Below, piece by piece: positions 78-59,533 of a DNA stretch of 64,000 bases. Position numbers and translations under genes: made by a program. Source of the stretch: Adineta ricciae. Taxonomy: Eukaryota > Rotifera > Eurotatoria > Adinetida > Adinetidae. The notes under the pieces were generated by a model. It worked only from the letters and a program-made list of their open reading frames with translations. It did not search any database and was not told where the DNA came from. The stretch is taken from the NCBI GenBank assembly GCA_905250025.1, contig CAJNOJ010000391.1:1-64000 (forward strand), given 5' to 3'. Position 1 is the stretch's first letter. Each line of letters begins with the position of its first letter.

Positions 78-3070
78 ATGGCAGAGATGATATACCACCA
101 TGATGGTGAATTACTTTTTTTCGAAAAACCATTAATAACCGCGGTTTCGGCCGGTGTGAGAAAACCTAATAAAAGGTCTGACTTTCGCGGTTCAATTAAA
201 CCGCTGACACCAACGCCTTCTCGCACCATGATCTACCGCGGTTTTGATCGAAAAAGTTTTTTCGTGGGTCATACCCATCCTCAGTGTAATGATATTGTGA
301 CAGTTATGCACTGGTTTGTAAGTCTCTAATTCTTTATTCTAGATTGTAATTGAGTGAAAATCTGTCCAAGAGCTTACCGTTGGAAATATTTACGACATAC
401 CTAAAAGTTTGTAAATCTATTACTTAGACAACACATTTACTCGTGATGGAAAAAGGTGGAACTCGAGCCGTAGCAGATATTCTCAAGGACTTATGTGCAT
501 ACAATCCAAGCGATGCCATGCCTTTCGATCGTTTACCTCATGATTGTTACATGATTGGAGTGGGCGGTTTAACGCAAAAAGAAGATTTGCAGAACTTGAA
601 ACGAACTATGGCTCAAATAGCTAACTCGTCAAATTCAGAAGATGATCAAGCCGAATATGCACTGATGAATTCAGAGAATATGGAATTTATTCTGGAGAAA
701 ATGAAATTAGCAGGAACTACACAACAACTCGAAAATGAAAGAGAAAGTCACTATGTTTTTGAAGATAACTTTAATGCATCACTGAAAGACATGATCCAAT
801 CGAAAGCCTCTTATAACAAACTTAAACAAATCTGCTATCGATACGAGAATCGTGAAGGAGAAGACGCTAGTGAGAACATGATTAATCATGAAAAACGTGT
901 TGAGTTGTCACACGAGCATTTTCTGAAGCAAAATGTACCGGTAGATGAAGCAAAAGCTATGGCTTTTGCTCTTTCGTTTTATACTGGTCCAAAAAGTGAA
1001 ACGTGCAGTCGTGCAGGTAGTCTTGTTGCTCGGCAAGGTAACTCCCAAACATTCGACAAGAAAACGGAAGCCGAAATGAATGAAGCATCTATCATTCTTT
1101 ATTATTTGGTCAAGGCGCTCTCTCGTATACCCTTCTATTGGGGTTACGTTACTCGGGCTTGTGAACTGAAGTTTGACGAACTAAATATGTACCAACCAGG
1201 TCGAGTCGTTACCTGGATTCAGTTTAGCAGTTCGAAAAAAGGTAAACAAGGACACGATTCCGAAGCATTCAAAAGGCGAAATACACTGTTCAAAATTTAC
1301 TCGCTAACCGGTCGTCCAATCAAGAATTTTTCGAATTATCCAGAAGAAGACGAAGTTCTTTTTCTTCCACATTCTACATTTATTGTTCTCAATCGCAAAG
1401 CCTCCAAAACAGAAGGTAATCAGATAATCTATATGCGACAAGTGGAATTAGGTTTGTGTAAATGGTCAATATTGTGGGTCGATGATCGCATATTCGATGA
1501 AAACTGGGAAAATAAAAAGCATATGGAATATGCAGCAATTAGAGCACTGGATATTAACGTACATTTTATTCCGAAGTCATCGACTGAAAGCGCTTTGTCG
1601 TTTCTTCGATCTCCATTTGGACAACGTTTGAAGAGCAGTGACTCGTTTCGAATCGTCACCGATATGAACCGAGAAAATGAATCCCCAAGCTATAATGCCG
1701 GTGCACGATTGATCAAAGCAGTACGCGACTTAGGATTCAAAAATCAGTGTCTTGTCTTTACAAGTGATAAACAAAATGCAGAAGATATTGTTCAATCAGA
1801 ATTATCTTCAAAACAGTTGCAAGGTGTTTTTATAACCGCTTACACCAAAGATTTACGAAATTTCGTCAATTTTGATCAAGCGCAAACTGCAGCACAACAA
1901 GCCAATATAGGAAACACAACAGAACATAGTTTAGGCCCATCTTCACTGAATTCGAGTAAGATAAAATACTTTCTTCATCTCAAATTCGATAGTTCAACAG
2001 AATTTTATAAAGTATTGTGACTATACCAAGCACTCCGTTTTCACTTTTTGTAGAAAAGTATACAAGTGTCAATAAGACAACTGTTGCTGCTGGCGCCTAT
2101 GGACATACGTATGCCAAAAGTCAAGCTCACAAAGACGATCGAATGATGCACAATACGAGAAACACCAATATTAATATACTGCTGACGAGCTGCGAAATGC
2201 GTAACTTAAACCATAGCCGACAGAAGTGAGATTTTTTGTTGTGGAAATGTGTTTTTATACATTTAACAGTATAATTATTAGAGTAATCTAGAAACATGTG
2301 TACTTTTTTTTATTTATAGCTGTGTTCTCATTACAACTGGCTCGTTCAACCCCGTTCATCCTTTCCATTTTCAAAATTTATTACGCGTTAAAGATCATCT
2401 TGAACGAGAACATCAGCCACCAATGAACGTACTTGCAGGATACATCTCACCAACACAGTATGTTGATTTTTCCAATCCATTCTCTGATTACAAAAGACAT
2501 GAAATCATGTTTTGCAGCGATTCATACGTGCATTCGAAACTAGGCGATTCGGCATGGATTCCAGCTAAAGATCGATGTCGTCTGTGTGAAGAAGCTATCG
2601 AATATGAAGGTTCGAAAGTATCATCATGGATTTCTGTTTCTCGAGGTGAAAGTGAATGGTATGAAGGTTTTGTTGATTTCTGTCCAGTTACAGAAAATCT
2701 TCGTGATTTTCTAAATACTACACTAGTTGGACAAAACAACTTACTGAGCTATCCACTACGTGTGATTTATGTATGTGGATTAGATCATTATAACAAATGC
2801 ACGTATATGGAGCGTATGGCGCAACAAAATAATATATCCTGTGCTATTGTTTATCGTCGAGGATGCGATGAACAACAAATCAATCGTTCACTTAAAACAA
2901 CAAATGTTATATATATTTCCTTGTCGAAGGAGCGTACGAAACTTACTGATGTAAGTTCAACACAAATTCGCGAATATTTTCAAAATCCAACTGCCAATAA
3001 TATGGACGTCGAGAGAAATATATATCCATCTGTACGTGACTACATGAGAAGAAAATATCGCAAAAAATAA
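78..3070 (+). CDS. ART - receiver-like - NMNAT fusion protein, 4 exons
   Basis: Exons 78-317, 428-1955, 2054-2225 and 2320-3070 join in frame into 896 aa; introns are 110, 98 and 94 nt with GT-AG ends (GTAAGT, GTAAG, GTGAG donors). The ATG at 78 follows an in-frame stop. Residues 1-250 are unrecognised. About 300-410 is an arginine ADP-ribosyltransferase fold with an R (YVTRAC), an S-S-S strand (QFSSSKK) and E-D-E (PEEDEVLF), matching the R-S-E triad. About 425-560 resembles a response-regulator receiver (ILWVDD, later IVTDMNRENE and LVFTSD). About 647-896 is a nicotinamide mononucleotide adenylyltransferase with GSFNPVHPFH and SSTQIREYF. ART consumes NAD+ and NMNAT makes it from NMN and ATP. 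Family calls rest on motifs; the joining of the halves rests on splice signals, so RNA evidence matters. Two adjacent genes is the alternative. Confidence 0.7.
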
Positions 3071-3569: not shown

Positions 3570-6500
3570 TCATTTTAGTGTTGTCCCTAGTCTAAAATTT
3601 CTGCGTTTGACTTTGGCTATGATCAATCGAAAGATGAGCATTTTCGACAGATTTGTTCTTTGAAATTCTTTCAGATAATTCGTCGATGGTAAAACAAATA
3701 AAATAAAACCAAGCGATTGTGGTGTATAAGCAAAAAGATAAGCAATGAGTAAAAGATGTTTTTGCCATTCGGATAAATCCATACACGAGAAACTAAACGA
3801 TAGAATTGATTGTGGCAAACCACTAATGATAATCACTAGAGGAACGACATACATTTCTTTTTGATTTCGAAATTGCCATTGAAGATATTTGAAAAATGTA
3901 TCAAAATGATTTGTTGCTCGAGACCGACTCCGTGCAGCTAAGATAATCAATGTAGTTACTGATAAAGTTTGAATCGAAAACGGAATTGTATAGTGAATCA
4001 CAACAGTAGTACGTTCATATGAGGATACGAATGATGAATAGCTTACAATACACGCTGATTGTGTACCTGGATCCTTTAAATAGAAGTATAATTCATGAAT
4101 GTTCATAATTGCAATGATGATCAATGTTAGAAAACTTATGATTATCGTAAATTGAACATTTTTCAATGAGCTTGAGAACGGAAATAGAATAAAACCAACA
4201 CGCACAATCGCCACCCAACTAATCAACCAAAATGAGCATCGCATAGTAATTGAAAGCATATACGAGACGATTTTACATAGGATATCGTTCATGAGAAAAT
4301 CGACAAGTATTTGTAAACTCTTCAAAATTAACGAGAACAATGTCAATTGACTAACGATGGAATAGAACAAAAGATAAATTCCAACAGTTGTATTTCGTAC
4401 ATTCGGTTGATTGAATGTGATCAATGTTGCATAATTTGTTAATCCACCAAAAATAAAGATAAGAAAAGTAATCAGACAGTAAACAATCCGATAAGTATAA
4501 TGAACGCGGAGGAGAGCAGAATGGAGAGTAAAGCTCAAACCATCGTCCATAAATTGGCATAATCGACCAGAACGACATTGTGGACAAAGACAAAGATATT
4601 TGTCTTGATATAATCGATTTTCAATTAAACATTGACCATTAGCAAAACACGATGAGCAACGTTCGAGATTGTGATTATAACCGAAACATTCAACACGATA
4701 ATGATCTGCATCACAAATACATAGATAATGATCATCAAAGAAACAAAATAAACTATGATTTTTTCGACAAAGATTGTGGTATTTGTAAGCGTGAATTGAA
4801 TCATCATGTAATGAAAATAAAGTGCGAATGTTGACACAACGATTCGTTTCACGCAGATTTGTGAAGACATTGGCAGAAGTGACATGAGTTTGCAATGAAA
4901 TTATATAAATGTTTACTTGATTGCCACCGAGATATTGTTTCGCAACGATAATATCGGGTGGTTTTAGTTCATTATGAAAAACTGTCAATTGCTCAGGAAG
5001 TTGTTGATAAACATGTTGAGAGATTAAGATCAGATTTAACGTGGCAAGATCTATTCGAAAATATTGAATAACCATCGCTCTATACTCAACAGTTTCATTG
5101 ATATGTAAGGAGACTATCTGTCTTGACAATTCACATCGTTTTCCATAGTACAGGTGAGTACATGAACAATAATAATCCATTGGCTTAATTGATGATAGAC
5201 AAGTACCATTATTTTCACAAGGATTTCGATTACATTCATCGTGTGATAGTTCACATCGACGGCCGTAACGTTTTAACGGACAAATACAATACGTAGATGA
5301 ATCATTTCTATCTGCTGAATTGTGGTAATTTGATCGATACAGAGCTTGACTGGAACAATAACTCTGATTAGGATTAGGATTGATGGAGAAACAGATGTAA
5401 TTATGTGGTTGATTGAGTAGTTGATGGCATTGAGAATCGTTTTTACATGGATTGCTCGAACATGGATTGTCGATATTGCCCATAGTGGTTAAACGTAGTA
5501 TTTTAACAAGTCGAAATGATGGAAGGTAATCGAAATAGATCGGGTATTTCCAGATGCCGATGAACAATGGAGTTTGATCGTGATTCAGTTCGTAAGCTTC
5601 GATTTGAACCGAGTAAGGATGTTCGTGAATAATACTCGATCGATTAAAATATCGTTGTCGTTTTCTTTTCAATGATACATTCGTTCGTGAATATAGAAAA
5701 CGAATAATTTGTTTTTTCCAATGGGTCAGTTCAATAGCAGGTCGGACATGAAAGTCCTTCATGGCAACCGTTTCATTTTCATGTGTGAACACAACGAGCA
5801 TTTTTAAGATTGTAGCTATATTTGTATCGATTGTATAATTATAATTTGAAATATTCAAACTGAGAATTAGAGTGAGTTGATCACTATAAAGCTGACATTT
5901 GTCACCATAGTATTGTTCAGGACAAAAGCAAACAATAGAACCGTTATGTATATACATGCCAACACCACGATTGCATATGTAAGCAATCGGCGAAGAACTA
6001 TTGTTGTCTGTCTCGATAATTTCGATGTTCTCTGGAATGGTGGAATTTATTATAGTTCTATCTGATTTTACTTTCGTTTTGTCAGGAAACGTTGGTAAAT
6101 TCAGTAGCTTCGGAGTCGTTGAAGCAATGTTTTTCTTCTGAATACGATAAATACTTTCAATACGTGCGCGTTCGACGTTTGGAATTTCACAGTAGTATTC
6201 ATCTTCTCCATGTACACAGTCCGGTATGTCATTACACCATCCTTCCGCAATACAAGTTCCATTCCAGCACTGAAAAGCATTACCCTGATTACAACGATTG
6301 GATTCTTCGGAACCAACGCACATTTGTTGATCATCGGTGACATTGGGACACCGAGTGACACAAACATCGTAAAAGTCAACACAAGTCTTAGTCGACAGGC
6401 ACTGAAAAGCGTAGCCAAGCATATTTCTCTGATTACAATGTTCCATTGTGTTTCGTTCATCCATACCGCCCAAACAATCAGGATGACCGTCGCCAACTTT

Positions 6501-8561
6501 TTCCAAACCGATACACGGATGTATGTGACCAGTGCTGGTCAATAGATGAGAAGAGTTTACTGGAAAACATGGAAATTCTATATTGAAATCGCAAATATTC
6601 CAAAATGATTGTTCATTATAACGTGCCAGAAAATTTGTTCTCAAAGTAGAATTACTTATTAGATCGATATTGTGTACAGATAAAGAATGATTAGTAAAGA
6701 AAATTCCTTGTTCGTCTGAGGCGTCCAAGCAATCCCATTCTCCATCTAGGATCCAATTAATATCGATACATTGACCTGAATGACATTGCCACTGATCTTT
6801 AGAGCAGATCCACCATTCTTTACAAATATGATGGTCTTCGTCCATCTGCAATTCCAAATCCCAAAATGTGTCGCAATACGCACGAAACGGCACATTTTCC
6901 ACGAGTTGTAATACTTTGTCAACTTTCCATGAATGCTCAATATACTCTCTGAGAATTTGGCGATCGCTATTGTAGTTACTGTTGTAATATAACTTTACTG
7001 GGAGGATTTCATCATGATTGTTATTGCAATCAGGTATATAATTATTGAGAACGAGTATAGATAAACATGATGGTTGTTCGGAAGAGCATCGAAAACGATG
7101 CCGCTGCATTCTCGAACATGCATTCAATACTAAATCTCGATTGCTTTCAGCTTCGTCCATCCGATCTGCGCAATCAGCCAGTCCATCTGCTATCCGGTAA
7201 GCCGAGATACATTCTTTCGTATAATTGCACACATCAATGGTGTTGTACGACTGATTTGTGAATGTTCGAGAGTTTCTGTAACATAATTGATCATAACCAT
7301 CTCCAACAACGAGAGAATTTCCTACTGGTGTCGCGCATATAAGAGCTTCCCAGGAATGAAGCGATTCACCGATTGAATCCAATATATACGTATAATAATG
7401 AACTAGATATTCTCGACATTTAATGGTTGCATTGAGTATGATCAAATAATCAATTATATCGTCGTCTTCCAGTGACCACTGCTCGATGTTATAAAAATAA
7501 TATGTATAAGGACTAAGTATTGCACCTGCGGGATATTGAACAAACAACAATTGACAATAACTACTTAGTTGCTCAATATAGCCCGTGTCACTATTCATAG
7601 AGTCGCAATTAACTTCTGCTCCATCTGAAAGGGCACATTTCAAGAAATATATACATTGTTCAGTATTATTTCTGTCAAGAACGCTGCTCTCATTGTAATC
7701 GTTGCCAATATAACATCTACCATTGGGCAAAGTCCATTGGAAATCAAGAGAATGGGTTTCGCACATGTAATATTGATCACGACAACTCCTACATGTTTCT
7801 CCTATGCTCGACGATTTCCGGAAAGCCAGACGATCCTTGATGCACTGCCCGTCACCACACGAATATTGAAATCTCAAACACACGCGATCATCACATTCCA
7901 TTCTAACCTTTTGAAATGCACAATCGAAACCACTGTTATATCCAATTTCATCTGTCATATCCATACAATCATAATCACCATCAAGAAAATATTCGTCGGG
8001 TATGCACATTCCGTTCATACATCGATACTCCTCATCTTCACATTCGTTAAATTCCAATTTATCACAGTTTTCTTCGTCATAACCGAACATACACTGCTGA
8101 ACACCATCACAAATATCTCGCCAGTCAAGACACAATAGACCCGAATCACAAGTTAATGTTCTATAGCATAAAATATCACCATATATCTGCATGTCATTTT
8201 CATTCTTCCTCCTTTCTTCTAATTCCCATCGAAGTGTTGCTTCGAACGTTGTGCCCATTGGTAACAGATACTCACAGTGCCTTCCGAACGATTGTAAATT
8301 TGTACATTCACATATATAATTATTATTAGCATTATCAAGAAGTGAAGTAGCCGGATGGACTTTACCATCATTGTAACAATATTGTGTGTTATTATCTCGT
8401 TGTAAAACAATCGGCTCACTTGGCCGGCGGCAATAGAGAAGATCTTCGTGAAGAATACAATCATAAAATTCTACGATTGAACCATCTTCAGTATGATAGA
8501 TATGAACGCCACCTTCAACAATAGACAAAAGAAAAACTATGCATAGAGTTTGTGTCAGCAT
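3570..8561 (-). CDS. LDLa/EGF-repeat seven-transmembrane receptor, 1663 aa
   Basis: A single uninterrupted minus-strand frame. It opens with a signal peptide (MLTQTLCIVFLLSIVEGG). The ectodomain has an EGF-like module near residues 40-100, LDL-receptor class A modules near 134-206 (CDGVQQCMFGYDEENC and a following copy), more LDLa-like modules mid-protein (DGEWDCLDASDEQ, DIPDCVHGEDEYYC), then several EGF modules (for example ECNRNPCENNGTC) ending near 1330. Residues about 1350-1640 carry seven hydrophobic segments, starting at YRIVYCLITFLIFIF, resembling a rhodopsin-type GPCR. This architecture recurs in bdelloids. The ligand is unknown; LDLa and EGF modules usually bind Ca2+ and proteins or lipoproteins. 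The absence of introns over 5 kb contrasts with the intron-rich neighbours. A cell-surface receptor is well supported; signalling activity is inferred. Confidence 0.85.
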   Translation of the reverse strand: MLTQTLCIVFLLSIVEGGVHIYHTEDGSIVEFYDCILHEDLLYCRRPSEPIVLQRDNNTQYCYNDGKVHPATSLLDNANNNYICECTNLQSFGRHCEYLLPMGTTFEATLRWELEERRKNENDMQIYGDILCYRTLTCDSGLLCLDWRDICDGVQQCMFGYDEENCDKLEFNECEDEEYRCMNGMCIPDEYFLDGDYDCMDMTDEIGYNSGFDCAFQKVRMECDDRVCLRFQYSCGDGQCIKDRLAFRKSSSIGETCRSCRDQYYMCETHSLDFQWTLPNGRCYIGNDYNESSVLDRNNTEQCIYFLKCALSDGAEVNCDSMNSDTGYIEQLSSYCQLLFVQYPAGAILSPYTYYFYNIEQWSLEDDDIIDYLIILNATIKCREYLVHYYTYILDSIGESLHSWEALICATPVGNSLVVGDGYDQLCYRNSRTFTNQSYNTIDVCNYTKECISAYRIADGLADCADRMDEAESNRDLVLNACSRMQRHRFRCSSEQPSCLSILVLNNYIPDCNNNHDEILPVKLYYNSNYNSDRQILREYIEHSWKVDKVLQLVENVPFRAYCDTFWDLELQMDEDHHICKEWWICSKDQWQCHSGQCIDINWILDGEWDCLDASDEQGIFFTNHSLSVHNIDLISNSTLRTNFLARYNEQSFWNICDFNIEFPCFPVNSSHLLTSTGHIHPCIGLEKVGDGHPDCLGGMDERNTMEHCNQRNMLGYAFQCLSTKTCVDFYDVCVTRCPNVTDDQQMCVGSEESNRCNQGNAFQCWNGTCIAEGWCNDIPDCVHGEDEYYCEIPNVERARIESIYRIQKKNIASTTPKLLNLPTFPDKTKVKSDRTIINSTIPENIEIIETDNNSSSPIAYICNRGVGMYIHNGSIVCFCPEQYYGDKCQLYSDQLTLILSLNISNYNYTIDTNIATILKMLVVFTHENETVAMKDFHVRPAIELTHWKKQIIRFLYSRTNVSLKRKRQRYFNRSSIIHEHPYSVQIEAYELNHDQTPLFIGIWKYPIYFDYLPSFRLVKILRLTTMGNIDNPCSSNPCKNDSQCHQLLNQPHNYICFSINPNPNQSYCSSQALYRSNYHNSADRNDSSTYCICPLKRYGRRCELSHDECNRNPCENNGTCLSSIKPMDYYCSCTHLYYGKRCELSRQIVSLHINETVEYRAMVIQYFRIDLATLNLILISQHVYQQLPEQLTVFHNELKPPDIIVAKQYLGGNQVNIYIISLQTHVTSANVFTNLRETNRCVNIRTLFSLHDDSIHAYKYHNLCRKNHSLFCFFDDHYLCICDADHYRVECFGYNHNLERCSSCFANGQCLIENRLYQDKYLCLCPQCRSGRLCQFMDDGLSFTLHSALLRVHYTYRIVYCLITFLIFIFGGLTNYATLITFNQPNVRNTTVGIYLLFYSIVSQLTLFSLILKSLQILVDFLMNDILCKIVSYMLSITMRCSFWLISWVAIVRVGFILFPFSSSLKNVQFTIIISFLTLIIIAIMNIHELYFYLKDPGTQSACIVSYSSFVSSYERTTVVIHYTIPFSIQTLSVTTLIILAARSRSRATNHFDTFFKYLQWQFRNQKEMYVVPLVIIISGLPQSILSFSFSCMDLSEWQKHLLLIAYLFAYTPQSLGFILFVLPSTNYLKEFQRTNLSKMLIFRLIIAKVKRRNFRLGTTLK

Positions 8562-9066
8562 ATTCTCGAACTTTCAAAACTGTGAAAAAAAAAGATCTCG
8601 TGAACAATACTGTTACTTTTATTTGCTATTCTTTTTCTACGAATTATCACGTTCGACTAATAGAAATATATTTGGTATCATATTACACATTGCCTATTTG
8701 CACGTTTATTAAAAACAATAGACAATTCATTAAACGCCTGGAAAAGGTTGAGAGTGGGTGGATAAGGATATAAATTGAAATAGTTGTTCACCATTACCTT
8801 TGTATATACTGTTCTTACGAGATAAAAATAGTTCGTGACTTTCTTCGCACGTACTCCGCGGACGAACAACGTCTTAGTAATAAAAACAACACACCTGGTG
8901 AAGAAAGAAAAACGCTACCCCGTACTTAACGTTATTTTCACTCTATAAAAAGAGATCCATTACGGTGTTATTACAGATTGTTGACTCGGTTAAACTAACG
9001 AAGAACGAGCGAAGAAAAACAATCTTTTCGACTCTAGTTTTATTTCATATTGCAAGGTGCTGAGAA
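8562..9066. other. Divergent promoter region
   Basis: 505 bp between the start codons of the receptor (-) and the acyltransferase-like gene (+). It must hold both promoters. No clear TATA box or coding exon stands out; the ORFs here are short and unconvincing. Confidence 0.5.
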
Positions 9067-29730: not shown

Positions 29731-30661
29731 CTACATAAAACCGCCGAACTCCTTTGGTAATGTATCCCAAAACTTGTTCATTTCTTCGTCTGTCACTTCA
29801 ACCAAAAATATACCATCACATGAATCGTCGTCAACTGTTGACTGAAAATCATCGACTGCTGTATTAGACCATAAGTCCATGGATAACGAAAACTTGCCAG
29901 CCAGCTGAGCCATAGCAGGATCCGCATGGGACGAGAATTCCATATTATCAACTTTAGACGCCTCCGCATCCCGTTCTGAATTAATCCAAAACCGGCGTCG
30001 TTTTGCATCAGGCACCATTTCTTCAAAAATACATGCCGGCGAAATTCGTTTCTGTTACCGAAAAATTCTCAATTTTCCCGTAACGATCAGAGAATCGTAC
30101 CTGGATTATTTTATTTGAACAGCTAGCAACTACCAATTTATTTCCATCAAAAGCGGGCAAATNATATTATCAACTTTAGACGCCTCCGCATCCCGTTCTG
30201 AATTAATCCAAAACCGGCGTCGTTTTGCATCAGGCACCATTTCTTCAAAAATACATGCCGGCGAAATTCGTTTCTGTTACCGAAAAATTCTCAATTTTCC
30301 CGTAACGATCAGAGAATCGTACCTGGATTATTTTATTTGAACAGCTAGCAACTACCAATTTATTTCCATCAAAAGCGGGCAAATTATTGTTATGATTCGT
30401 CAACATATGGTTATAAGTTGATACATCAGTGCAATCATCTGAAAAAAAAATTATAATAAACACGTCTTTTCGAAAAATGACACAAATACCTCGCTTAGCA
30501 ATCATCAACGAATACTTCGTTGGACTTCCGTTCACCGTACTCACATGCTGTGTTAATCGATTCAGATAAGTATTTAATAGTTCCCTTCTTTCAGCAGGCA
30601 CTTCTTCATCAATTAATGTAAAACTCTGGCAAACTCTCTCGCCGACCGCATGAATATCCAT
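29731..30661 (-). CDS. Unrecognised KDZ-element protein, about 202 aa
   Basis: Starts MDIHAVGERVCQSFTLIDEE. Exons 30661-30490, 30438-30323 and 30273 onward; introns of about 50 nt (GTATTTG...TTCAG and GTACGA...AACAG). The last exon crosses the single N at 30163; skipping the duplicated 29942-30163 restores a 203-codon frame ending EEMNKFWDTLPKEFGG. It carries a basic patch (DAKRRRFW) and an acidic C-terminal half. No known domain recognised. Its position between two genes of the element, same strand, tight spacing, suggests an accessory protein of the transposon or the N-terminal part of the transposase. Confidence 0.5.
29942..30384. repeat. Exact 221-bp duplication around a single N (assembly overlap)
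   Basis: 29942-30162 and 30164-30384 appear identical, separated by one N at 30163. The same 221-bp size recurs at 57772 and 59277, arguing for unmerged contig ends. Confidence 0.85.
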
Positions 30662-55386: not shown

Positions 55387-58300
55387 ATGGCGACAAATCT
55401 TCAATCAGTATTTGATTATTTAACCGAAAAAGGTTCTTTGGAAATAATAAATCGCGATCGTCTCGTCGAAATCTGTTCGGCATACAATCAACTGAAGGCT
55501 GACCACACTTTTGCAAATGACGATGATCTCGTTCAGATGTTAATCAAGGAATTTTCCATCGTTAACGATACAGAAAACTTCGATCGTTTAAAACAATGCG
55601 TAACAAATGTAAGTGTCGATCTGGCATATCAAATTGTTCAGAAAGAATATACACTTAAACTTATAACACAAAAACGATTGAAAGTAAGAAATGCAAAATC
55701 ATCATCCAATGTTCATGTGGAAACAAACCCAACAACACAAACGAATGTCGAGATTATGAAGCAAATTATTTGTCAAATTCTAATCAAACAAAATCATACC
55801 GAAGTTATCAGTTTGATCGAAAATTTCTTTTTGTGTCAGTTGAGCAAACTTACACAAGGTTACAAGTAAGTACATTCAGAATAGTTAACACGTATCGCTC
55901 TTGCATTCGATGAATAGAAGACGAACTACAAGTCCATTATCAGCCGACAAACTTTACAATGGGCTTGTCTGTCCTGGTACAATACTATACGAATTTATTC
56001 GATTTCAGTTATCTAGTCGAGGTGGTGTTATTGATGTTGGACGCACTTTGACAAGATTCCCGCTTGTTGAACCATTACTATTGGTAGATCAGTTCGATAC
56101 GTGGAATTTTGATTATTTACGTGGTTTGTTTGAATTGAATTTGTTACCTCCAAGCGGACCATTCCCGAAAGCATGGCAAATTGATGACAATACTCAGTTT
56201 TTTTACCTTTTGGAGCTGCCTCATGGAAATAATGGTACAAACTGTCAACGAGCAAGAAATAACGATCGACCAAGTACAGTTTCCTTGCAAAGATTCGTTG
56301 AAGATGTATGCGACAAGGAAAACAATGGAATGGGGAAGAAATGGCTCAACGCGTTAACTCAAGATGATATATTCACTTATGATCATCTCGTCAATCTGAA
56401 ATTTGATGAATGGAACCAATTGAAGACATTATCTATGAATGGACGAAAGATTCTCAAATCATACGTTGATCGGGAGAAGCAAATGGCCAATGATATGAAA
56501 AACCAGACGAAGCCTGATGAGACCAATTCAAATCAACGTAAATCACGTTATATTGATGAATAATCAATCTCTTCTGATCATTCTTTTCTTTTCATATTCA
56601 GAATCTGAATCAGAATTATATGCGAAAATCCATCAAGTTCAATTATATTTTCATTATACATTAGCTGACAAATTTCATGTTGCTCAGATTCCAAGACCAG
56701 CGAAATTGAATGCTGACTGTGTTCATTTGTCGTTTGAAGAAATGCGCAGAGACGGCTTTGAAGATGACGGTCTTTTCGATCAAATGAAAATGTTCTTTTT
56801 GCCACTAACAATGGTCGAAAACGATTTGGCTATTGATGAAACTCACCTACGTTCATTGAACAGAGGACGTGAAACACAAAGAAACAATTTACAAGAAAGA
56901 AGAGAACAGCTGATCGGCAAACTGGCTGAAAAAGAGAGTCGATATTATGATCACGATGATTCACTGAATAAACTACGAAAAGAGACAAACGACAAGCAAT
57001 CAGTGTCAGATGATGTTGCACAACGAGACTATGAAAGTTTTTCAATATCAGAGTTGCTGGTTATGCATACAAACGGAATGAAATGTCTGGAAAACGAAAA
57101 ACATAGTTTACGAACTCAAATCCAAGAAATCGATGATCTTTTGAACAGTCTCGACCGAGTCTCAACAGATTACAATGTGAATCAAAGCGGAAGATCTGAT
57201 AAGGATCTGATCAAACCAAATCGAGGTTTTATTATGTATGGACCGCCAGGTGAGAAACCTTTGCTACTGCCCAGAGCACAATTTTCGCTTTTTCTTGTTC
57301 AGGTACTGGTAAATCTGATATCATGAGTAAATTATCAGCACGTACGGGTATTTGTATGGTAGCACCACCACTAGCTGCAGGTGAACTCAATCGATCATTA
57401 GTTGGTGAATCGGAACGAATCATTATCGATATTTGTATGCGTTGTCATCGCGTTCCGTATCTGATGTGTTGTGTATCCATCGATGAAATTGACTCGCTTG
57501 CACCAAAACGTACAGATGATAGTAAAGATGGAAATCTAGCAAAACTCAGTGTACTTTTGTCTGTTATCGATGGCATTAAAGATGTACCGAATTTAATGAT
57601 ATTTTGTGCGACAAATCGTTTGCATATGATGGATGAAGCATTTCTTCGTCGTATGTCGGGAAAATTCTTTGTTGGTCGACCATCATCTCAAGCCAGAAAG
57701 AACATTCTAAGTGGTATCAAACCTTGGCACATGCCAACAACTCTACTCGATAGTTTGACTATGGTCACTACNGTACTTTTGTCTGTTATCGATGGCATTA
57801 AAGATGTACCGAATTTAATGATATTTTGTGCGACAAATCGTTTGCATATGATGGATGAAGCATTTCTTCGTCGTATGTCGGGAAAATTCTTTGTTGGTCG
57901 ACCATCATCTCAAGCCAGAAAGAACATTCTAAGTGGTATCAAACCTTGGCACATGCCAACAACTCTACTCGATAGTTTGACTATGGTCACTACAAACTTC
58001 AGTGGTGCTGCTCTCAGGTAAGTCATTCACATCGCACAACTCAGTCAACCACGTTTCCTATTTGATTGCAGAGCTCTACGTCGTCTTATAACGGTGTATT
58101 GTGTTGATATGAAACGTAGAAATCCTGCCTATCTATTAGATTATTCTACAATGCTTCGCTTAACTGATGTTACTGCTAGACAATATCGAATTTTCCTTGG
58201 TGCAGAAACATTACCAAACGTCATCGCACGTAGCGTGGTGGATAATGATACACCGATCAATAACCAACAATTCAACGATCTAACGTATCGCAATAATTCG

Positions 58301-59533
58301 ATCTATACAGGTCGAATTCTGACCAATTTAAATACCGCTAACATCGATATTGAAGCTGTTGAAACAAATCCCATCACAGGAGAATCCAAAAAGATTGTCT
58401 ACCGATATGCATTACTTGACTCTGAAACTATCTTACAGGGATTATTGGAACGTTTAACAACCTATGGGAAATTACGTAACGTTCAACTTCTTCAACTCGT
58501 CGATCTTAATCTTCTATCAGCCGAAAGTGCTCACGATGAAAAACAGAAGTTTGAAACATTGAAAGAACGTTTAGATGAATGTGGTGCTTATCGTCGTTCG
58601 ATGATTGTTTATGATTTAGATTCATTAGTTGGTATTAATCGAAGTGAAGGCAATGCTTCAACTGGTCGAACAACAAATTTTTCTTTGATTAATCATAATA
58701 TTTACACGCATATCAAAGACAAATTTCAAAACACGTATGTTCAACATTCGACTAATAATTCCACTCAAGATACCGAAGAGAAATGGTCAGTTGTCTTCAT
58801 CTCGGATGCATTTTTACTTCGTCAATTTTCCGATGATGTCAAGTTTACTCGGCCACAAAGTGAAATTGATGAAGAACAAGCTGAAGAATGTCGAGCTAAC
58901 CAGCAGATTTTGTGTGTTCAATGTGATGATTATTACATTGAACAAGACAATCGAATGGGAGCTTGTGCACATCATAACGGATTCATTTATGATGTTTATT
59001 CGGTAGACTTGGCTATATGTATTCGAAAACGTGTCATTGAAAACCTATTAGACGAAGAATCGCGATTCAATGGTAGACTCAATCGTAATCCTCCAACACA
59101 GGAAGAAAAGGAAAATTTTGAACGGCAAAAACATCGATTCAGATATATCTGTTGCGATCAAGTTCTTCAAATTGGTGGTGCAATGAGTGGATGCAAACGA
59201 GGCAAGCATAGTGAACGAAATGTCACTCGTGAACATTGGGAAACAACTTGTGATAGAAATCAAGAATATCGACGCANAGAATCGCGATTCAATGGTAGAC
59301 TCAATCGTAATCCTCCAACACAGGAAGAAAAGGAAAATTTTGAACGGCAAAAACATCGATTCAGATATATCTGTTGCGATCAAGTTCTTCAAATTGGTGG
59401 TGCAATGAGTGGATGCAAACGAGGCAAGCATAGTGAACGAAATGTCACTCGTGAACATTGGGAAACAACTTGTGATAGAAATCAAGAATATCGACGCAAA
59501 AGATTGGCACTGCTTGAAAAACGAGCTCATTAA
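55387..59533 (+). CDS. AAA+ ATPase with degenerate second module and CHORD-like zinc domain
   Basis: Exons 55387-55865, 55918-56537, 56602-57249, 57303-58017 and 58072-59533. Joining exons 3 and 4 creates the Walker A motif GPPGTGKS exactly across the splice. Walker B is CVSIDEID; ATNR (sensor 1) and EAFLRRMSGKF (Arg finger region) follow, placing it among NSF/VCP-type classical AAA+ ATPases. The second half has RRSMIVYDLDSLVGI, a Walker-B-like relic. The C-terminus CVQCDDYY...NRMGACAHHNG...YICCDQVL...GCKRGKH follows the CHORD zinc pattern. Residues 1-400 are unrecognised. Two exact 221-bp assembly duplications (57551-57993, 59056-59498) lie inside exons and keep frame; without them the product is about 1159 aa. 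Probable role: ATP-driven remodelling of protein complexes. Confidence 0.72.
57551..57993. repeat. Exact 221-bp duplication around a single N (assembly overlap)
   Basis: 57551-57771 and 57773-57993 read identically, split by the N at 57772. It duplicates the sensor-1 part of the AAA+ module, which is implausible biologically. Confidence 0.88.
59056..59498. repeat. Exact 221-bp duplication around a single N (assembly overlap)
   Basis: 59056-59276 and 59278-59498 read identically, split by the N at 59277. It duplicates half of the CHORD-like zinc module. Confidence 0.88.

Follow-up and report, generated by a model that had tools for sequence, protein, structure and literature searches.

ADP-ribosyltransferases (ARTs) consume NAD+ and release nicotinamide, and NMNAT enzymes build NAD+ from NMN and ATP. 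In the described systems closest to the gene presented here, the two enzymes are separate proteins: passages of two reports place NMNAT1 beside ARTD1/PARP1 and NMNAT2 beside PARP16, where the local supply of NAD+ from NMNAT1 to ARTD1 and from NMNAT2 to PARP16 drives tagging (PMC6721828, PMC9149570). NMNAT-kind adenylyltransferases are likewise combined with other enzymes of NAD metabolism in NadM (NMNAT-Nudix) and NadR (NMNAT-ribosylnicotinamide kinase), according to passages of a further paper (PMC9503650). The gene of the bdelloid rotifer Adineta ricciae described here differs from the former pairs, which are PARP-type, in joining an NMNAT and an arginine-type (ARTC-like) ART in one polypeptide, and from NadM and NadR, which are bacterial or phage proteins with a Nudix or kinase partner, in that its partner is a protein-tagging transferase. 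Its parts are of known kinds; their combination is new. The initial annotation knew of no described protein with this order of modules, and a search of the open-licence PMC literature, with passages of PMC4245714, likewise found no paper on an ART-NMNAT fusion or on this bdelloid family.

The window analyzed (the first 64,000 bases of C391, a contig of 83,281 bases in the 130-Mb A. ricciae assembly) begins at the contig start, with no sequence upstream of it. The fused gene lies close to this end, and splicing its four exons (Table 1) gave the public protein P0001 (790 aa) letter for letter. The initial annotation had read a single frame from 78 to 3070, which stays open over 896 aa once introns at 318-427, 1956-2053, and 2226-2319 are removed. 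The latter two introns lie where it had placed them, as shown by the translation of P0001, but its start and product length had to be revised: P0001 begins at the methionine at 446, an in-frame TAG occurs at 425, and a further intron had been read through. The upstream exon was rejected, being missing from all eight public fused proteins that reach the N-terminus (10 were aligned, of which P0009 and P0010 start later). The overlooked intron is 60 nt long, divisible by 3, and free of stops, so that reading through it adds 20 residues. We consider it an intron because these residues are missing from 10/10 public fused proteins (P0001 and nine others) and because a stand-alone NMNAT paralogue carries a 49-nt intron at the matching site. 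Directly 3' of the gene, a 1667-codon open frame on the minus strand (3570-8573) appears by eye to encode cysteine-rich repeats followed by a membrane-like C-terminus. Elsewhere in the window, three head-to-tail duplications of period 222 (29942-30388, 57551-57993, and 59051-59499) each comprise two nearly identical copies; two of them, read in frame, show an undetermined base (X in the translation) between the copies, and the duplications therefore resemble artefacts of assembly gaps, by which gene models gain extra residues.

Table 1. Features of the fused gene, in window coordinates
Feature	Position	Strand	Remarks
Upstream exon of the initial annotation, open frame, unsupported for the fused gene	78..317	+	Missing from P0001 and all 8 informative fused proteins
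Fused gene, whole coding region	446..3070	+	790 aa plus stop, four exons; spliced translation equals public A. ricciae protein P0001
Exon 1, residues 1-503, ART and receiver-like modules complete within it	446..1955	+	
ART domain, residues ~36-334	551..1447	+	Pfam PF01129 at residues 155-330
Catalytic Arg237, R of R-S-E	1154..1156	+	42/42 rows
Ser261-263 (SSS), S of R-S-E	1226..1234	+	42/42, 42/42, and 40/42 rows
E301-D302-E303, ExE of arginine-type ARTs	1346..1354	+	E301 in 41/42, E303 in 42/42
Receiver-like (beta-alpha)5 domain, residues ~338-479	1457..1882	+	
Asp346-Asp347, acidic pair	1481..1486	+	41/42 and 40/42 rows
Asp406, phospho-acceptor Asp position	1661..1663	+	41/42 rows
Intron 1, between both modules, inside low-confidence linker	1956..2053	+	GTAAGA...TTTTTGTAG
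Exon 2, linker and NMNAT N-terminal helix	2054..2225	+	
Internal Met535 codon (M-H-N), aligned with start codon of stand-alone NMNAT	2146..2148	+	Alignment to C1 gene
Intron 2, phase 2, common to stand-alone NMNAT gene	2226..2319	+	
Exon 3, first part of NMNAT	2320..2457	+	
GSFNPVHPFH, nucleotide-binding HxxH motif	2339..2368	+	GS[FL]NP[VI]HxxH in 10/10 fused proteins
Intron 3, phase 2, 60 nt in frame, overlooked in the initial annotation	2458..2517	+	Encoded residues missing in 10/10 public fused proteins; same site in stand-alone paralogue
Exon 4, remaining NMNAT through stop codon	2518..3070	+	
SSTQIR, NMNAT motif	2954..2971	+	SSTxIR in 10/10 fused proteins

Pfam recognized two of the modules whichever product was searched. 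In the 896-aa model, ART (E 8.5e-10) and CTP_transf_like (E 1.4e-4) were above the curated cut-offs, but Response_reg (PF00072) gave no match at E up to 1. In the corrected 790-aa product the values were E 7e-10 for ART (PF01129; 39 bits versus a cut-off of 22.3) and E 3.7e-5 for CTP_transf_like (24.4 bits versus 21). Since both families pass their cut-offs in both products, the motifs noted from the sequence (R, SSS, and E-D-E for the ART, ILWVDD for the receiver-like part, GSFNPVHPFH and SSTQIR for the NMNAT), all of them present and in the proposed order of ART, receiver-like, and NMNAT modules, are not chance marks. Public databases already assign the two Pfam domains automatically to several of these proteins. 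We consider it very probable that this is one gene with three modules (an arginine-type mono-ART, a receiver-like domain, and a complete eukaryotic-type NMNAT) and that both architecture and gene model are conserved.

All 42 family members in the ART-receiver alignment matched PF01129 at E up to 0.01, and the predicted structure of the first module showed the ART fold. Its R-S-ExE residues class it as arginine-type, with predicted transferase activity. This site and fold are shared with ecto-ARTs and other arginine-specific mono-ARTs (PF01129) and with bacterial XopAI and HopU1. Ecto-ARTs are secreted or GPI-anchored, whereas a simple hydropathy scan, which is not a signal-peptide predictor, found no hydrophobic signal segment in the 10 fused proteins (best 19-residue mean hydropathy of 0.9-1.31, and 0.15-0.82 near the N-terminus, which is not the true one in P0009 and P0010), and in the bdelloid proteins the receiver-like and NMNAT parts follow the ART. 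The fused protein is predicted to be intracellular. The A. ricciae genome holds at least 34 more weak matches to the ART part among the best candidates, spread over many contigs, as in a large ART family. One open frame (C437, L032:952-2685) seems by eye to carry a dual-specificity-phosphatase-like stretch ahead of the ART-receiver, and a partial gene model of Rotaria magnacalcarata (P0028) has a ubiquitin domain in that place.

The search of the protein collection retrieved 43 proteins. Ten of them (P0001-P0010) comprise all three modules and come from five bdelloid species (one from A. ricciae, three from A. steineri, four from A. vaga, and one each from Rotaria socialis and R. magnacalcarata), so the module order was found conserved in related genomes, as gene models. 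Of these, P0010 has a short N-terminus and P0009 starts later than the others. Two further fused-type gene models (P0011 and P0021) look broken, and P0042 has only the linker and NMNAT in common with the fused proteins; having no ART, it was kept out of the 42-row alignment. The remaining 30, of which 24 are metagenome and 6 named proteins, end shortly past the receiver-like part. We rejected the notion that all metagenome ART-receiver proteins of about 500 aa are complete without an NMNAT, because at least 6 of the 24 lie on contigs whose size (9594, 9018, 44284, 7069, 6991, and 10233) equals that of a contig with an NMNAT-exon protein, although equal size is not proof of identity; in these six, gene callers seem to have reported exon 1 as a protein. 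In R. socialis, a 236-aa NMNAT annotated alone (P0051) and the corresponding part of the fused P0004 are nearly identical and adjacent in the tree. P0051, which counts against the fusion, is either a fragmentary model or a genuine gene of its own.

The whole-genome search of A. ricciae, in which 57 of 178 candidates were scored, found one intact fused gene, on C391. For further ART-receiver genes (C386, C437, C238, C630, and C153) the same search listed no NMNAT match on the contig. A second copy (L019, C503:14500-22500) corresponds to the window starting at base 651 and lacks a stretch near 934-1116. Its flank is 95.5% identical to the window, which suggests that it is the other allele. Its ART-receiver half has stops, and its three NMNAT exons have neither indel nor stop (dN/dS of 0.36 versus the window copy), indicating that the halves are not always kept together.

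The ART-receiver tree (30 rows: 24 of the 42 alignment rows and six loci of this genome, C437 being represented by its last 330 residues) placed all fused rows in one 23-row clade (100/100). Outside it were C386, C437, two C153 genes, the 509-aa model P0041, P0040, and P0043. Neither tree includes the A. ricciae loci C877 and C882. The degenerate-looking C238 and C630, together with some unfused rows (P0028 and P0030), lie inside the clade, so repeated loss of the NMNAT part is probable. The NMNAT tree comprised 51 rows (P0042 and all rows that had 205 or more aligned residues in a 90-protein alignment, itself drawn from 158 collected proteins). Within the bdelloid-type NMNATs (92/89), it showed a 19-row clade (100/97), some of whose rows are labeled unfused; the ten fused rows sit in a 16-row group (81/80) of this clade. 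Inner branches left open were 10/48 and 12/38 in the NMNAT-tree analysis and 13/27 in the ART-receiver tree. The fusion most likely arose once, in the common ancestor of Adineta and Rotaria; as the trees were midpoint-rooted for drawing, this single origin and the inside/outside placements depend on the root. Stand-alone bdelloid NMNATs (the C1 gene, P0081, P0083, and P0086) belong to the same NMNAT subfamily but are not fused to an ART-receiver. The C1 gene, which lies in the A. ricciae genome, has both intron positions and phases and the N-terminal helix region of the fusion. These introns, the alignment of its start methionine with Met535, and the tree grouping argue that an NMNAT gene, together with its start codon and introns, was most likely joined to the ART-receiver exon before Adineta and Rotaria split: an ART-receiver gene, now one exon, would have become spliced to a stand-alone NMNAT gene that retained its start Met and introns. 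The Rotaria proteins P0083 and P0086 have a basic N-terminal extension that, by eye, could be a mitochondrial signal.

We propose that the NMNAT end would make NAD+ from NMN and ATP beside the ART, and that tagging could thereby continue when free NAD+ is low, e.g., during drying, rehydration, or DNA damage. A nicotinamide phosphoribosyltransferase, which a full local cycle would need, is not in the fused protein. To the explanation as a whole, a three-module fusion of single origin with local NAD+ supply, we give a probability of roughly 0.48; its functional part, the supply of NAD+ to the ART, is advanced a shade more tentatively. In passages of two papers, which name no fused genes, ADP-ribosylation is enriched among the genes of A. 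vaga over-expressed after desiccation and irradiation (PMC10809525) and among those under-expressed in spaceflight (PMC12220480). Given the former enrichment, the fused protein may bear on desiccation survival; the latter speaks against the proposed explanation.

The alternative that survives best, while still unlikely, is that the NMNAT module has lost NAD+ synthesis and serves as a nucleotide-binding sensor that reports the NMN/ATP/NAD+ state to the ART, or acts on another substrate. The position aligned with W92 of human NMNAT1, presumably the Trp that stacks on nicotinamide, is Gly in 10/10 fused proteins, so the use of NMN by the fusion is not assured. In a 22-row NMNAT alignment the same position is Gly or Ala in 10/10 bdelloid-type rows and Trp in 11 of the 12 others. 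The same genome also holds, on C399, a fragment of a Trp-bearing NMNAT that looks canonical by eye. NMNAT-like domains moreover occur in other company in open frames and gene models: in the same genome with a protein kinase domain in a 504-codon frame (C59, L021:4761-6272) and with a fructosamine-kinase domain in a 617-codon frame (C507, L025:4385-6235, minus strand), and, with a similar linker, behind a U-box and kinase in the partial Rotaria gene model P0042, whose PF01467 score of 20.7 is slightly below the cut-off of 21. Against a loss of activity, the HxxH, SPTHDxYV, and SSTxIR patterns are kept in 10/10 fused proteins, and the predicted structure has the eukaryotic NMNAT fold, with true eukaryotic NMNATs as its best fold match. 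The NCBIfam equivalog TIGR00482, which we take to be the model for the bacterial NadD type, was not reached (24.6 bits versus 112.45, in the 896-aa model).

Local NAD+ supply within one chain also presupposes that the halves are translated together. They are separated by a linker of about 50 residues that is disordered and of low confidence in the predicted structure, so no channel is predicted. It is rather improbable that the locus encodes two proteins as an operon-like pair, the ART-receiver ending at a stop at 2018-2020 and the NMNAT starting at Met535 on an mRNA of its own, capped separately or trans-spliced. Trans-splicing occurs in bdelloids, only 125 bases lie between that stop and the Met535 ATG, and the near-identical NMNAT of R. 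socialis is annotated alone. The M-H-N, which equals the stand-alone start codon, is invariant in the 11-row fused alignment and present in 13 listed proteins; its conservation would, however, be explained by the surrounding helix, which is predicted to be ordered. Against two separate products, both halves belong to a single predicted gene in five bdelloid species, although predictors can join neighbors. Peptides upstream of M-H-N, from 8 of the 12 linkers tested, were 25.2% alike, above all 60 shuffles (mean of 16.9%, maximum of 24.6%), a likeness that shared ancestry alone would raise, and P0042 has a similar linker behind its kinase.

The middle module has the (beta-alpha)5 fold of receivers in its predicted structure, and shares with receiver and cRec domains the acidic pair and acceptor Asp. 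Position 439, at the end of beta-4, is T in 32/42 and S in 1/42 rows. Unlike those domains, the module has no conserved Lys at the end of beta-5 (459-474 in the 42 rows, position 464 being S/T in 39/42), which makes classical coupling by phosphorylation unlikely, and its nine domain sequences matched neither Response_reg nor cREC_REC (PF20274) at E up to 10. A PDB sequence search with the domain gave four unrelated-looking matches (best E of 0.007). Scans of a genome-contig collection with the receiver-like alignment and of a viral-contig collection with the 42-row ART-receiver alignment gave 68 and 13 pattern matches, respectively, none of them confirmed. With its acidic pocket kept, the module would probably hold or regulate the ART by binding a ligand or partner, not by phosphorylation. 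A slightly less probable alternative than the operon-like pair is that it processes or binds ADP-ribose like the proposed cRec, so that one protein would make NAD+, use it, and handle the product. According to passages of two papers (PMC9503650, PMC7824862), the proposed cRec domains are Rec-like, associate with NAD+/ADP-ribose systems, and are never linked to histidine kinases; this description fits a receiver fold with its Asp residues in 40-41/42 rows, no conserved Lys, a physical link to the ART, and no kinase within the same fused protein. Against it stand the missing cREC_REC matches in the nine domain sequences and the fact that the cRec function is itself a prediction; a whole-genome search gave no cREC_REC match either, but did not pick up its controls. 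That the ART modifies its own NMNAT partner, so that the fusion limits NAD+ synthesis by feedback instead of fueling the tagging, is very improbable: the flexible linker tethers transferase to enzyme, but the ART needs the product of the enzyme that it would shut off.

Under the preferred reading, NAD+ supply to the ART from the attached NMNAT, the fusion bears on an idea whose support so far comes from distinct proteins that are brought into contact. With both halves naturally in the same chain, the idea could be tested directly in one polypeptide, where one half is disabled and the other measured. The locus would also represent a gene capture in which the start codon and introns of the captured gene are still visible, and through it a receiver-type fold would enter an animal ADP-ribosylation enzyme. 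A bolder version, which we regard as doubtful, sees a self-fueled ART, the first protein with NAD+ synthesis and NAD+-using tagging in one chain, whose receiver-like module would sense or process not a phosphoryl group but an ADP-ribose compound, and whose NMNAT exon block would be a movable cassette also attached to other signaling domains, as in the Rotaria U-box-kinase model. If true, several signaling proteins of these drying-tolerant animals would have a built-in supply of NAD+.
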